Below, in pieces: positions 16,828-25,230 of a DNA stretch of 41,865 nucleotides (its first letter is position 1; every line of letters begins with the position of its first letter). The DNA is from Coriobacteriia bacterium (GTDB taxonomy: Bacteria > Actinomycetota > Coriobacteriia > Coriobacteriales > Eggerthellaceae). Under the pieces are notes generated by a model that was given only the letters and a program-made list of their open reading frames with translations, was not told the DNA's origin and ran no database searches. The stretch covers positions 1 to 41,865 of the forward strand of contig JAUNWQ010000011.1 in assembly GCA_030540225.1 (NCBI GenBank), in the 5' to 3' direction. The translations under genes were made by a program, and so were the position numbers.

Positions 16828-18588
16828 GTGGCCAGAACCGCGCTGACATATCTTGCACGCCCGAACGTGGCCTCGCTGGGATACGCGCTCTTCCTCGCGA
16901 TCAATGCCGCAGGCGTTTGGGGCGGCGTGTTCCCGTTCCTTCCCCTGGATTTTCAAACGTCGGAAATCATCTTCTGGTTCTTCCTCACCCAATCGCTCGT
17001 GTTCTCGTTGTGCTATTTCGCAAGCGCGGTGGGCGTGTACTTCCTGCCAGGGCCGACGCGCCGTTTTCTCGTGAGGCTTGCCTGCATTCCCTACCTTCTG
17101 GGATGGTGCTGCCTTATCGCCGCGATCTACTTCGACCGAGCCTCGCTTCCGCTCGTCATCGTTGGTGGTGCGTTTTTGGGACTCGGATCGGCCGGCTTCT
17201 ACATGCTGTGGCAGCGCCTGTTCGCAAGCTTTGACTCCGATCGCGGAAACCTCGACCTCATCCGAGGAACGGTGTACGGCGCCATCATGTACTTCGGGCT
17301 TTACGCTATTCCCCAAGCGGTGACCGCGTTTCTCATCCCCTTGGTCTTCATGCCGCTGTTCGGCCTCGCCATCGTCTTGAAAAGCCGCGAGATCGACCTT
17401 GACCAGCCGATGTTCGAGGACGTGCCGCACGAGAACGCGGCGGTGTATCGCGCCGTGATTCGCGACTACTGGCGGAGCGCCCTCTGCGTCGGCGCCATCG
17501 GCTTCTGCACCGGCATCATGCGCGCACTCGCAATCGGCGAGCCCCAAGTCGGGTCGCTCGTGAACATGCTTTCGATGGCCGCTTCGTTCGTTGGCGCCAT
17601 CACCATGCTCGCGCTGTGGAAGGTGAAGAGCGTGCGGTTCAACGTCGTCGGGCTCTACCGTGTGGCGTTCCCCTTCGTGATCACGTCGTTCCTCCTTCTG
17701 CCCTTCTCGTCGCTTGAATACGCCCGATGGCAGGCCGCGATTCTCTACGCGGTCTACAGCGTGGTCATCATGCTCATGATGATCCAATGCGCTCAGGCCT
17801 CGCGCGACCGCGGCATCAACCCGGTCTTTATCTACGGCTTCTTCGGCGGCATCGTATATACCTTGCATGATGTGGGTTTTCTTGCGGGTACCTTCTCCGA
17901 ACAGGTCCGTATTTGGGGCATCGACCCCTTGGCAACGACCGCACTCGTGTCGCTATACCTTCTAGGGTTCATGTTCTTCATCGGCCAAGGCGGCTTCAAG
18001 CGAGTCCTTCGACACGACCCGTCCGCTGAGAACATCGAGCTTATCATGCTCGATGGCCGTCCTCCCGCGCGCGTGACGAAAAGCGCCGCCAGCCAGTTGC
18101 CTGCAGACGACAAGCACGAAGCCAGCGCTGCGAGCACGCCCGAAGGTGATTCCCCTGCCGAGCCTCAAGCCGCCTTCCCGAAGAAGCCCGCGACCATGGC
18201 TGAACCCATGTGCAACGAGAGGGAAGTGGACGGGCGAGACAGCGGCCAACCTGACGGAAGGAAGCGTGGCGGCAACAGTCGCAGCGGCGGCACCGATTCG
18301 CAGGCAGACGCCCCGCGCGGACGCGGCAGGCGCAATTTCGAAGGCGACTTCGAGCTGACCGACCGTCTCTCCAAACAGGCGCAAGTCCTTCGCGAGCAAT
18401 ACCGCCTGAGCGCGCGCGAGACGGAGGTCATGGAGTACATCGCACGCGGGTACACCGTCGCGCGCACCGCCGAGGAGCTCATCGTGTCGGAAAACACCAT
18501 CCGCACGCACAGCAAGCGCATCTACGCGAAACTCGACGTGCACAAGAAGCAGGAGCTCATCGACATGCTCAAGACCGTCGAACTATAA
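16828..18588 (+). CDS. Membrane-anchored LuxR-family regulator of the dms operon
   Basis: A 586-residue protein starting with GTG behind a strong GAGGAGGAAC site. Residues about 15-395 form roughly ten to twelve hydrophobic segments. A long disordered linker (about 400-510) is rich in Ala, Pro, Gly, Arg and Ser. The C-terminal LuxR/GerE helix-turn-helix (about 520-583) has LSARETEVMEYIARG, SENTIRTHSKRIYAKL and VHKKQELIDML. It shares its layout with the regulator at 3805-5481 but the membrane part is divergent, as expected if each senses a different signal. Divergent orientation to dmsA and the TGTGAC half-sites between them make it the probable regulator of the reductase operon. Confidence 0.9.
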   Translation: MARTALTYLARPNVASLGYALFLAINAAGVWGGVFPFLPLDFQTSEIIFWFFLTQSLVFSLCYFASAVGVYFLPGPTRRFLVRLACIPYLLGWCCLIAAIYFDRASLPLVIVGGAFLGLGSAGFYMLWQRLFASFDSDRGNLDLIRGTVYGAIMYFGLYAIPQAVTAFLIPLVFMPLFGLAIVLKSREIDLDQPMFEDVPHENAAVYRAVIRDYWRSALCVGAIGFCTGIMRALAIGEPQVGSLVNMLSMAASFVGAITMLALWKVKSVRFNVVGLYRVAFPFVITSFLLLPFSSLEYARWQAAILYAVYSVVIMLMMIQCAQASRDRGINPVFIYGFFGGIVYTLHDVGFLAGTFSEQVRIWGIDPLATTALVSLYLLGFMFFIGQGGFKRVLRHDPSAENIELIMLDGRPPARVTKSAASQLPADDKHEASAASTPEGDSPAEPQAAFPKKPATMAEPMCNEREVDGRDSGQPDGRKRGGNSRSGGTDSQADAPRGRGRRNFEGDFELTDRLSKQAQVLREQYRLSARETEVMEYIARGYTVARTAEELIVSENTIRTHSKRIYAKLDVHKKQELIDMLKTVEL

Positions 18589-18645: not shown

Positions 18646-19302
18646 CTACCCCGTGACGTCGCCCGATTGGTCGAGCGAGATCGGCTCGCCCACATACGTC
18701 GAGGGCACATCGAAGAGCGCCTTGAAGAAGTCCTTGGTGCGGGCGGGAATCTCGCGCACATCGTACCAGGTCTGCTTGCCGTAGCTGCGATAGTCGCTCG
18801 CTACGCCGATTGCATCGACCCCCAAGGCGTGCGCCGAGTAAAGCGCGCGGTAGAGATGGTAGGTCTGCGTGGCGATCACGACGCGCGAGCAGCCGAACAC
18901 ATTTTTCGCGCGATACATGCTCTCGTAGGTGGAAAAGCCCGCATGGTCGCAGAAGATATCCTCGGAAGGCACGCCCTGCGCAATCGCGTAGCGCTTCATC
19001 GCCGCGCACTCGTTGTAGTGCTCGGTGCTGTTGTCGCCCGACATGATAATCTTGGGCGCGGCCCCTGCCTTGTAGAGCGCGATGCCGCAATCAAGGCGGT
19101 CCTGTAGAATCGTCGACGGCGTGCCATCGGCGAACACCGACGCACCGAGCACGACGATTGCGTCGGCTTGATAGCTCGACGCCTCGTCGACGCTCACGAT
19201 ATCGTCCTTCGTCGTGAGCACCACAAGCGCATTCGTCGTACCGACGACGATCGCCACGGCAGCAATGCAGGTACACAGTATTTTCAACAACGCCTTAATC
19301 AT
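18646..19302 (-). CDS. SanA/YdcF-like DUF218 membrane protein
   Basis: A 218-residue protein with one N-terminal membrane helix (residues about 3-28, LLKILCTCIAAVAIVV) and an external DUF218 domain. The core shows DAIVVLGASVFADGTPS, RLDCGIALYKAG, IIMSGDN, the acidic NECAAMKRYAIAQGVP, and ATQTYHLYRALY, all features of SanA, which affects envelope permeability to vancomycin-type compounds in enterobacteria. The start at 19302 is chosen because the longer frame to 19425 crosses the leuS terminator; the ribosome site is weak (GAAGTGAT). It follows leuS on the same strand after that terminator, so it may be expressed by read-through or from its own promoter. Confidence 0.8.
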   Translation of the reverse strand: MIKALLKILCTCIAAVAIVVGTTNALVVLTTKDDIVSVDEASSYQADAIVVLGASVFADGTPSTILQDRLDCGIALYKAGAAPKIIMSGDNSTEHYNECAAMKRYAIAQGVPSEDIFCDHAGFSTYESMYRAKNVFGCSRVVIATQTYHLYRALYSAHALGVDAIGVASDYRSYGKQTWYDVREIPARTKDFFKALFDVPSTYVGEPISLDQSGDVTG

Positions 19303-19340
19303 GCAGCTATCACTTCGATGCCTTCCAAACTGCGAGAGGA

Positions 19341-19373
19341 CAAAGAAGGGTCGGCAGCGGAAACTGCCGACCC
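19341..19373 (-). terminator. Rho-independent terminator of leuS
   Basis: On the minus strand a 10-bp stem GGGTCGGCAG/CTGCCGACCC (arms 19364-19373 and 19348-19357) with a six-base loop is followed by TTCTTTG. It lies about 90 bases past the leuS stop. Confidence 0.85.
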
Positions 19374-19461
19374 CCGATTTCCCATTCAATCCGCCGCCTA
19401 GCAAGTGATCAGCGGAGCTTGTCAACGAAACGATTGTAACGCGACAATCCTCTTTTGAGGT

Positions 19462-22095: not shown

Positions 22096-23097
22096 CTACG
22101 TTTGCGCCGCTAGGTCGACCATTACCGACATGCGGAACCCGCCCTTGGAGCGTTCGAGGGAAACCGCCCCGTCGTAGCGCTGCACGATCGTGTCGATGAC
22201 GGACAGCCCCCAGCCGTGCTCGGCGAGGGAGCCGCCGCTCGTCTGCTCCTCGGCGAACCTGATTCTCTCGAGAATTCCGCGGCGCGTCGTTTCACGACCC
22301 TCGTCCCCTTCCGACGCCGACTTGCTGTTGCGCATATCGAGCACGAGGTACGAGCCTTTGACGGAAGCCCTGAAAACCACGAAGCGCTTGCCGCGATCGA
22401 CATCTTCACAGGCGTTGAGCGCGTTGTCGAGCATATTCGACACGAGGGCGCACAGCTCGGAGTTGGAAATCGACAGCTCGGCAGGAACCTTCAGCGAGCA
22501 CTCCATGTTAACGCCCTTCGCCTTGAACTCCCGCATCTTGAGCGACATCAGCGCATCGAGGGCGACATGGTCGCACACGCGCAGCGATTTCCTGCCCGCG
22601 AGCACAATGATCTCGTCCATGCGCTGCCCGCTTGAGGCAACCTCTCCTCGGGAAAGCTGCGCGTCGAGCTCGTGGAGCTGCTCGGCAATCTTCCTGCGAA
22701 TGTCGCACGCCTCGTTTTCCACGGAAATAAGCCCGCGAGCGCCCATGCGCTCGGCATCGATCTGCGCCTTGAGCAGGCGCGCCTGTTCGCGAAGGGCGTC
22801 CGCGTACTCGGCCTTCCCCAGCGCTGTGAACAGCAGCGAATCGAGCGGGATACAGGCCACACCCAGCGCAAGCGTCAAGAAAAGCATCGTCGGCTCTAGG
22901 TGGAGAAGCATCGTCGACGCCGCGATTCCCGCCACGCAGACGATCTGGCTTGCGGGGAACAGCATGCAGGACAGCAGGTAGCGAGGCGACGTGCGGGTCA
23001 GTCGGCGGCACAGGATAGCGGCCTTCACCGTCATCGCGACCAGCACGGCAACGGCAAGCGAAAGGGATATCACGAAGAGCATGTCCATAGCGTTCAC
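22096..23097 (-). CDS. GHKL ATPase membrane protein lacking the His-box; half of a split sensor kinase
   Basis: A 333-residue protein. About three membrane segments lie in residues 5-120, then a helical region and a GHKL ATPase domain (about 190-330) with the N-box LVSNMLDNALNAC, the Asn-containing VLDMRNSK, and the G-box GWGLSVIDTIVQRYDG. In AgrC-type kinases the helical region carries RHDxxNH. Here the aligned segment is IRRKIAEQLHEL, with Arg135 where the phosphorylated His should be and Gln in place of the second His. The upstream neighbour (23104-24096) has the His-box but no ATPase, so the two are complementary. The GTG start at 23097 follows AGGGAC; ATG 23088 is an alternative. Only six bases separate it from the upstream stop codon. 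Confidence 0.85.
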   Translation of the reverse strand: MNAMDMLFVISLSLAVAVLVAMTVKAAILCRRLTRTSPRYLLSCMLFPASQIVCVAGIAASTMLLHLEPTMLFLTLALGVACIPLDSLLFTALGKAEYADALREQARLLKAQIDAERMGARGLISVENEACDIRRKIAEQLHELDAQLSRGEVASSGQRMDEIIVLAGRKSLRVCDHVALDALMSLKMREFKAKGVNMECSLKVPAELSISNSELCALVSNMLDNALNACEDVDRGKRFVVFRASVKGSYLVLDMRNSKSASEGDEGRETTRRGILERIRFAEEQTSGGSLAEHGWGLSVIDTIVQRYDGAVSLERSKGGFRMSVMVDLAAQT

Positions 23098-23103
23098 CTG
23101 TCC

Positions 23104-24096
23104 CTACGCCCTATCGCTCGACAATGCGGCGGGTTCGCAAAGCGGCGATGCGGCAGAAAGGGCGGCCTTGGAGCGAAGGACCACCGAGGCATCTCGGGCG
23201 TCCATGCTCTCGATTTCCCCTAGAAGGTCGCGAACATGCTCGCGGGCAGCGTCGAATTCCCCACGCGAGGCGAGCATCTCGATAATCTGCAGATGATTGC
23301 GCAGGTCATGGCGGAGTTGAGCGGAATTCTCGAGAAGGGTGGAAAGATCGTCGAACAACTGCAACTCATCGTTGAGCTGACGCTCGAGGGCCTCGATGCG
23401 CAGAGCTTCGAACCGTTCGAGCACGAAATCGTCGATTGCGCGGAACAGGGCGAGGTCGGACACGAGAAAGAAGACGCCCATGAGCAGGACACTCACAACA
23501 AGCAGCGGACTCCACACGGCGGCCGTCCCAATACCTATGAGCGCAATCAGCAAGAAGGGAACTTGGAGCAGGGGAAACCATATAAAATACTTCGTTCCCC
23601 CACCAGTATACCGCTTCACCTCGGGGGTCAACCATTGGCTTTGAGCGCGACGAAGCATCACGAACAGTACATCGAGCAGAATCAGATGGAGGCCGGACGC
23701 CACCGCATAGCTGGCAAGTCGCGTGTATTTCTCCTGGTAGCTGAAAGGATCGTCGACAACGAGCATCCAAAGGAGAAGGCATGCAAGGTAAGCGATGATA
23801 GCAGCGACGATCGACGATGCGACGACAATCGCGCGATGCAATGGGCGATCGCGCGCGAAAAGCGCAGGGGCCGCGCAGAGCAGTATCTGCACCATAACGA
23901 AAAAAGGCATGCTAAACCGCGACGAGAGGGGGTCAACCACTAAAGCGAAGACCGAATATGCGGTCATGAAGAGAGCTGGGCGCGGAATATCCAGAAGTCG
24001 AGTCATCGCATAGCCGTACAAGATCTGAATCGGTACAGCCCCTACTAATTCGACGATAATGTTTTCCCAGGTCATGTCAAATGCCAGAACCTCCAT
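23104..24096 (-). CDS. Membrane His-box (SpoB-like dimerisation) protein without ATPase domain; half of a split sensor kinase
   Basis: A 330-residue protein with six or seven hydrophobic segments in residues about 10-225, followed by a coiled-coil-like helix and the two-helix phosphotransfer domain. The His-box is LRHDLRNHLQII, with phospho-acceptor His263 and His268. The chain ends about 65 residues later without N-, G- or F-boxes, so it cannot bind ATP by the known GHKL fold. No frameshift explains this: the next gene begins with its own membrane segments. It lies four bases after the response-regulator stop and is followed six bases later by the GHKL protein; the three form one operon. The protein may be phosphorylated in trans by the GHKL partner and pass the phosphate to the LytTR regulator. 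Confidence 0.82.
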   Translation of the reverse strand: MEVLAFDMTWENIIVELVGAVPIQILYGYAMTRLLDIPRPALFMTAYSVFALVVDPLSSRFSMPFFVMVQILLCAAPALFARDRPLHRAIVVASSIVAAIIAYLACLLLWMLVVDDPFSYQEKYTRLASYAVASGLHLILLDVLFVMLRRAQSQWLTPEVKRYTGGGTKYFIWFPLLQVPFLLIALIGIGTAAVWSPLLVVSVLLMGVFFLVSDLALFRAIDDFVLERFEALRIEALERQLNDELQLFDDLSTLLENSAQLRHDLRNHLQIIEMLASRGEFDAAREHVRDLLGEIESMDARDASVVLRSKAALSAASPLCEPAALSSDRA

Positions 24097-24100
24097 TTTG

Positions 24101-24886
24101 CTATGCTTGCGCTTTCAGGTAATCGAGCAGCGCCTCTTTCACCTCGTGGCGCCGTTTCTGGCTCATAGGAACGCGCGAGCCGGATTTCACAAGAATGTCG
24201 TCTTTGCCGATTTCCACAACGTCGGCAAGATTAACCACGAAGCTCTTATGGCACCGCACGAATCCTTCGAGCAGCATGGCCTGAGCATCTGCGAGCGAGC
24301 AGTACACTTCCATAACACCGCCGTCGGTGTGCAACCGCAGCTTGCGGCGCTCGCTTTCCAGATACTCGATGCGATCGGCGTCGACCACGATCGTCCGACC
24401 GCGCACATTGAATGTGAGCGCGCAGGGGAACGACTTCGGGGGGACATCGGCACGCGCGCCCTGACCCACCTGTTCGGTCTGCCCATCCTGCGCATTTTGA
24501 CCCGCAAGATTCTCCAGCGCCTTTTTCAGGGCGTCGTCGAGGGCGCTTTGCCTGATGGGCTTAACCAGGAAATACACGTGTTGCGTTTCATAGACGGGCG
24601 TACAGTACTCGATGTAACCAGTTGCGTAGATGACCTGGGTTTTCGAGCCCGCCGGAAACAGATCGCGCACCATGGAGATGCCGTCTGCGGCGTCGGTTCC
24701 CAAGTTGATGTCGGTGATGAGAATGTCGATTGCGCGGCCTTCGGAGACGAAGGACTCGAGTTCGGCGCGGGAAGCCATCTCGTGTATGACCAAACCCTCC
24801 GAGAAAGGCGAAGCCGCAACCCTGTCGATGAGCGCCACCGCGCACTCTGCGTTGTCTTCGACTATGCAAACCGTGTAGGAAGGCAT
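24101..24886 (-). CDS. LytTR-family response regulator
   Basis: A 261-residue cytoplasmic regulator. The receiver domain (about 1-125) has the acidic pair in VEDN near residue 10, the phospho-acceptor Asp59 in LITDINLG, and the conserved Lys in VYFLVKPI. A linker rich in Gln and Gly leads to a LytTR DNA-binding domain (about 155-258) with RIEYLESERRKLRLHT, FVRCHKSFVVNL and PMSQKRRHEVK. AgrA-like regulators of this class bind repeated imperfect direct repeats upstream of their targets. It is the first gene of the operon with the two half-kinases. The ribosome site is weak (TAGG at about nine bases). Confidence 0.93.
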   Translation of the reverse strand: MPSYTVCIVEDNAECAVALIDRVAASPFSEGLVIHEMASRAELESFVSEGRAIDILITDINLGTDAADGISMVRDLFPAGSKTQVIYATGYIEYCTPVYETQHVYFLVKPIRQSALDDALKKALENLAGQNAQDGQTEQVGQGARADVPPKSFPCALTFNVRGRTIVVDADRIEYLESERRKLRLHTDGGVMEVYCSLADAQAMLLEGFVRCHKSFVVNLADVVEIGKDDILVKSGSRVPMSQKRRHEVKEALLDYLKAQA

Positions 24887-25230
24887 GTTTGCAAACCTAC
24901 TTTCGCTCGCTTTCCCCTGAATGATATCGAGTATACCCGAAAGGTCCGAGTTTGACGCGCCGCCGCGAGAAGCATGAGGGGGACAATTTGAGGGGCTCTT
25001 CGGCAGCGCCCAGTCGATCAGACAGTCCTCATGCGCTGCGGAACTCGCTTTGTGGGCGCCGCCTCGGGTCGAGGGGGCTCTTCGGCAGCGCCCAGTCGAT
25101 CAGACAGTCCTCGCTGCGCTGCGGAACTCGCTTTGTGGGCGCCGCCGAAGAGCCCTCGGTCGGGTCGCGAGGACTAAACGCGGCCGCTTTCTGATACCAT
25201 GAACGCACACGCGTAAAGAGAGGCATCCCC
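24887..25230. other. Intergenic region holding an 82-base tandem repeat
   Basis: The region lies between two divergent genes (the response regulator and engB) and contains no credible gene. Most of it is the tandem repeat listed separately. The engB ribosome site AAAGAGAGG lies at its right end. Confidence 0.6.
24992..25155. repeat. Tandem direct repeat, second copy with terminal inverted repeats
   Basis: Two copies of about 72-73 bases begin at 24992 and 25074 (period 82) and differ only by a small change in the middle (CTCATGCG against CTCGCTGCG). Copy 2 is complete: its first 20 bases (25075-25094) and its last 20 (25136-25155) are inverted repeats of each other at 19 of 20 positions, so the unit folds into a long hairpin. 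Copy 1 lacks the last 12-13 bases of the closing arm. The layout suggests a REP/MITE-like extragenic palindrome. Confidence 0.8.

Follow-up and report, generated by a model that had tools for sequence, protein, structure and literature searches.

A putative split, heteromeric AgrC-like histidine kinase formed by two paralogous membrane proteins in Coriobacteriales

In the textbook sensor kinase, each chain of a homodimer carries both catalytic parts. In the AgrC/AgrA system of Staphylococcus aureus (HPK10), a six-helix membrane sensor, a DHp domain with an HD box, and an HATPase_c_5 ATPase are combined with a LytTR response regulator. In the HK1-HK2-TcrA system of Mycobacterium tuberculosis, which pairs a HAMP/HisKA-type kinase with an OmpR-type regulator, the ATP domain is found on one of the HK1 and HK2 proteins and the His domain on the other. 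The two kinase genes are listed together with one regulator (Rv0600c-Rv0601c-Rv0602c; PMC8965865). The phospho-His and the ATPase are also on different proteins in CheA3/CheA4 of Rhodobacter sphaeroides, neither of which labels itself alone, and which act by trans-phosphorylation (PMC3591291). The products of Hik36 and Hik43 (PilL-N/PilL-C) of Synechocystis, two genes over which one kinase is divided, interact (PMC7656254). In theory, split bifunctional kinases can yield ultrasensitive or bistable switches (PMC3591291).

The locus described here lies in a 41,865-nt stretch of DNA from a Coriobacteriia bacterium, the whole of which is referred to as the window. Its three genes are interpreted as one two-component system with an obligate split, heteromeric AgrC-like (HPK10) kinase, a reading to which we assign a probability of roughly 0.86, and in which the complex and trans-phosphorylation are inferred. 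The locus shares the AgrC features listed above, but the His and the ATPase, which AgrC carries on one polypeptide, are divided here over two paralogous proteins, named HisP and AtpP. Judged by sequence alone, with its phospho-His domain and ATPase on separate proteins, the pair resembles a split histidine kinase in the CheA3/CheA4 sense, in which neither half would label itself and the mixture would label the His protein. Those proteins, however, are members of the CheA family with P1-P5 domains and belong to a cytoplasmic chemotaxis cluster, rather than being membrane-embedded paralogues with a LytTR regulator. The CheA P1-P5 domains are absent from HisP and AtpP, for which Pfam gives only SPOB_a (weakly) and HATPase_c domains. 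Hik36/Hik43 differs in being a CheA-like HPt/CheA split, with its genes far apart in the genome. In a literature search of partial coverage, no description of a split kinase of the LytTR/AgrC type was found for either Coriobacteriales or Clostridia. Split kinases as such are already known; what is new here is that the halves are paralogous and both membrane-bound, that several His subunits often accompany one ATPase, and that the halves have repeatedly been re-fused.

The operon and its two halves

Three genes, separated by gaps of 4-6 bases, follow one another on the minus strand. The first (24101-24886) encodes a response regulator (RR), in which Pfam Response_reg and LytTR matches delineate a receiver domain (D59, and the Lys of LVKPI) and a LytTR DNA-binding domain. 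HisP (23104-24096; 330 aa) consists of six membrane helices and a DHp-like hairpin with the phospho-acceptor His, and has no ATPase domain. AtpP (22096-23097; 333 aa) consists of three membrane helices, a His-less DHp-like hairpin, and a GHKL ATPase matching Pfam HATPase_c_5. A first-pass annotation of this DNA had proposed that each half has its own membrane segments and shares one operon with a LytTR regulator, and this arrangement bears it out. Every catalytic motif of the window copy is intact. The operon is flanked by what we take to be a ysxC/engB-like gene (25231) and leuS (22017), both named from sequence alone; no shared function was found among the genes that flank the homologous loci. 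The gene after leuS (18649-19425) encodes a DUF218 protein, and a further protein (16828-18588) is rich in hydrophobic segments and has a LuxR/GerE DNA-binding domain at its C-terminus.

Alignment of homologues placed the His box of HisP at RHDLRN (R262-N267, with His263; 23296-23313, minus strand), within the longer LRHDLRNHL. R262, H263, D264, and N267 are invariant among 17 aligned homologues. The sole Pfam match of HisP is a sub-threshold one to SPOB_a at residues 250-298 (26.6 bits, cut-off 28.1), and systems of this kind are easily missed in annotation, because the His half falls below the cut-off. The HE/DxxN/T phosphatase motif is present as HDLRN in the window HisP and as HDxxN in most homologues; its occurrence on the His subunit is the feature named for bifunctional split kinases (PMC3591291), and phosphatase activity itself is inferred.

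The ATPase of AtpP matches HATPase_c_5 with 53.1 bits against a cut-off of 22 (E 3e-14), and is the only such match in the window's own genome. Its N-box, NMLDNA (N221-A226; 22420-22437, minus strand), and its G-box-like HGWGL (H294-L298; 22204-22218, minus strand), were located by alignment of homologues; N221, D224, N225, A226, and H294-G297 are invariant in 15 of these, and most AtpP homologues retain the N-box and HGWG motifs. Opposite the His box, AtpP reads IRRKIAEQL (22675-22701, minus strand), with R135 in place of His263 and Q140 in place of the second His. Among AtpP homologues the His-equivalent residue is Glu in 16, Arg in 14, Ala in 13, Asp in 5, Thr in 4, Gln in 4, and Ser in 3, with others making up the rest. 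His occurs at the aligned position in two of the 68 readable sequences (RHRVAE in L098, RHVYAD in L125), both of which are without the Asp and Asn of the box. The open reading frames and motif assignments of the first-pass annotation, namely a His box without an ATPase in HisP and an intact ATPase opposite a replaced His in AtpP, were thus reproduced.

A profile-profile comparison aligned HisP 149-299 with AtpP 27-171, a stretch of 145 columns that takes in the last membrane helices and the DHp-like hairpin (E = 7e-16, probability 98.6%), which excludes chance; the SRGE shared by both proteins ends 17 residues past the His position in each. The earlier view that these helices are paralogous is therefore firm. 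The further suggestion that they decayed in opposite ways stands as regards the complementary losses, and is refined as regards their extent: HisP lacks the whole ATPase; AtpP lacks the His box and also, in comparison with HisP, the first membrane helices. Given the firm paralogy, AtpP is best described, as judged from these alignments, as a kinase paralogue that lacks the His and the first membrane helices, and HisP as one that lacks the ATPase. Between them, the three proteins provide what is expected of an HPK10/AgrC-like kinase, namely a membrane sensor of several helices that leads into a DHp with an HD box (in HisP), a GHKL ATPase (in AtpP), and an adjoining Response_reg and LytTR partner. 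The remaining expectation, a His box and ATPase on one polypeptide, is failed by the window pair and met only in the seven fusions described below.

Distribution, fusion, and loss in Coriobacteriales

When 397 Coriobacteriales genomes were searched with a profile and 86 loci were extracted, approximately 94 HisP-like and 69 AtpP-like genes were obtained outside fusions, with a separate HisP/AtpP pair in 57 genomes. All but one of the AtpP genes (68 of 69) adjoin a HisP, the exception being a deletion remnant in G001. The usual order is RR-HisP-AtpP, sometimes RR-AtpP-HisP, often with overlapping start and stop. Several loci have two or three HisP per AtpP (for example L058, L084, L087, L088, L091, L093, L111, L112, L131, and L138), and six HisP genes were without an AtpP in the stretch examined, several of them at contig ends. 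Strong HisP matches were confined to Coriobacteriales in a sample of 246 Actinomycetota genomes. The loss of the His from AtpP and of the ATPase from HisP co-occur in adjacent genes and are fixed across the Coriobacteriales clade, with no full His box in any AtpP; a separate protein with both His box and GHKL intact, which would have refuted the first-pass proposal, was looked for in this clade and none was found. Because dozens of related genomes preserve this division, the halves almost certainly work only as a pair. In one locus (L086:2484-4265, genome G297), an upstream HisP copy is frameshifted and the main pair is intact.

HisP and AtpP occur as a single open reading frame of 542-691 codons in seven Coriobacteriales genomes (L064, L066, L100, L104, L107, L108, and L141), with the layout TM-DHp(His)-TM-DHp(no His)-GHKL and no other kinase domain. 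A GHKL tree groups the Coriobacteriales AtpP in a single clade (support 0.993) that is free of intact kinases, and the fusions fall at about four places within it. Because they are scattered in this way, separate genes appear to be ancestral in the clade and fusion secondary. As far as the tree can tell, this scatter is as expected of repeated re-fusion of partners, and the fusions offer strong circumstantial evidence that HisP and AtpP are physical partners. The idea of an obligate heteromeric kinase is, accordingly with the adjacency, the fixed losses, and the fusions, strongly supported by the relatives of the window pair; trans-phosphorylation remains an inference.

The N-box of AtpP is damaged in five loci (L132, L136, L137, L139, and L143). 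The Asp after the His of HisP is lost in four of these five, compared with none of the 62 others (Fisher 6.5e-6), the altered His boxes being RHSLAN, RHALAN, RHSLAS, and HHVLAN; in the exception, L136, the His box is intact. The four loci represent approximately two lineages, and hence about two independent events, and the effective number is small. The direction of the apparent co-loss is as predicted for a trans-acting pair. The phospho-Asp of the RR is retained in all 64 readable homologous RRs. The proteins of the four loci persist despite loss of both ATP site and His-box Asp (with the RR phospho-Asp remaining in L137 and L143), and these pairs are possibly phosphorylation-independent receptors.

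The system can also be lost. In a sister species of the same genus (G001; L077), a 2.7-kb deletion has removed the equivalent of window positions 22506-25178, leaving the last 137 codons of AtpP (about the last third) and nothing else of the operon. Both flanks are approximately 95% identical in DNA to the window, and 110 unrelated bases occupy the deletion junction. Since this species lost the system, it is dispensable in the genus. Two direct copies of approximately 75 bases (39 + 32 nt exact, spacing 82-83) are present in the window at 24992-25146, in the intergenic region upstream of the RR gene; these repeats provide no obvious explanation of the deletion.

Proposed mechanism and alternatives

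In the proposed mechanism, HisP, as receptor, DHp, and phospho-His protein, would associate with AtpP via the membrane segments and the paralogous DHp hairpins of both. AtpP would contribute a membrane anchor or second receptor, a His-less DHp-like hairpin, and the GHKL ATPase, which would bind ATP and phosphorylate His263 of HisP in trans; HisP would then pass the phosphate to Asp59 of the LytTR regulator. Because the HDxxN motif is present, HisP, perhaps when free, may also dephosphorylate the RR. The physical complex, trans-phosphorylation, phosphatase activity, signal, and targets are all inferred, and the support consists, at the level of sequence alone, of the gene pair, the complementary losses, paralogy, conservation, the fusions, and the intact RR phospho-Asp.

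Structure prediction added little on the geometry. An AlphaFold model of a natural fusion (L147; mean pLDDT 71, pTM 0.37, a low global confidence) consists of membrane helices, a first long hairpin, more membrane helices, a second hairpin, and a GHKL fold, in that order; the domains are good, the packing is unreliable, and the placement of the His relative to the ATPase is not shown. Its top fold matches are 6e95 and 6e52, both structures of the S. aureus AgrC kinase; 4bxi, the AgrC ATPase domain, also ranks near the top, and the fold matches include kinase regions of DivL and RetS. Covariation between the partner hairpins was suggestive but weak (p ~0.0003-0.06, depending on settings), and, since a control within the HisP hairpin failed, it is not used as support.

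It is very improbable that the pair merely represents a single kinase gene disrupted by a sequencing error or frameshift, or two pseudogenes in decay. The remnant in G001, which keeps only the last third of AtpP, is what such decay might leave, but dozens of genomes have the same two-gene division with their catalytic motifs intact, so a sequencing error that hides a full kinase, which would have refuted the first-pass proposal, can be rejected. Moreover, AtpP has its own membrane helices and a hairpin paralogous to that of HisP; a protein read through both frames would therefore contain two DHp hairpins and would not be one ordinary kinase. It is somewhat less improbable, and still unlikely, that AtpP is a pseudokinase-like regulator whose contact with HisP is regulatory only, and that a different, complete kinase phosphorylates HisP, which would then be HPt-like. 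His-less GHKL proteins can be regulatory, as the DivL and RetS matches recall, and related Coriobacteriales genomes hold complete LytTR-linked kinases (L062, L076, and L078-L083). Nearly all AtpP members, however, retain the ATP-site motifs, most loci that lost the ATP site also lost the HisP Asp, the fusions are without another kinase domain, and the window's genome offers no other HATPase_c_5 protein.

A variant that keeps the split kinase deserves more weight, and is nonetheless the less favoured arrangement: HisP and AtpP might each homodimerise and meet only transiently, without a hetero-bundle. CheA4 acts in this way on the P1 domain of CheA3 (PMC3591291), and the predicted HisP-AtpP interface is not established. 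A mere catalytic donor, however, would have no use for the paralogous membrane-plus-DHp-like module that AtpP retains, and repeated fusion into a 1:1 chain also speaks against it. The hetero-bundle is tentatively preferred over two homodimers that meet.

Clostridial counterparts and a possible evolutionary route

A scan of a genome collection with the AtpP alignment identified comparable cases in Clostridia. HisP and AtpP pairs were found in Merdimonas MAGs (L149, L153, and L162), in Caccovicinus (L174), and in Clostridia(les) (L151 and L154), and a fusion in a Lachnospiraceae MAG (L164). The His position of nine Clostridial AtpP-like proteins is occupied by S, S, S, I, E, D, E, Q, and L, and a longer set of membrane helices is still present in AtpP of L154 and L165. 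The Clostridial sequences branch apart from the Coriobacteriales clade in the GHKL tree, at more than one position and with low support; their origins are on these grounds likely, but not proven, to be independent.

Two loci resemble earlier stages. L148 has tandem kinases that are both intact. In L167, both tandem kinases are full-length: the first has a good GHKL and no His, and the second has IRHDYSN, an N-box changed to SHLVDLA, and no Pfam ATPase; this tandem in complementary decay looks like an intermediate. The series suggests, from comparison of present-day genes, a route from tandem duplication through complementary point loss and domain loss to, sometimes, re-fusion. More tentatively, at somewhat under even odds, the systems may constitute a modular family of heteromeric receptor kinases, ancestral to much of Coriobacteriales and reinvented in Clostridia, in which one membrane ATPase subunit serves 1-3 membrane His subunits via hetero-four-helix bundles, and a single LytTR regulator integrates at least two signals. 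Such integration would become possible with several His subunits per ATPase. A division of labour between paralogues that is fixed across an order of gut bacteria, recurs in Clostridia together with intermediate stages, and has several times been reversed by re-fusion, provides a natural series for testing the evolution of heteromeric enzymes after duplication. One further AgrC-like kinase (L173:4465-5328) has a single in-frame stop exactly between DHp and GHKL, which represents either a recent split, a pseudogene, or a sequencing error.
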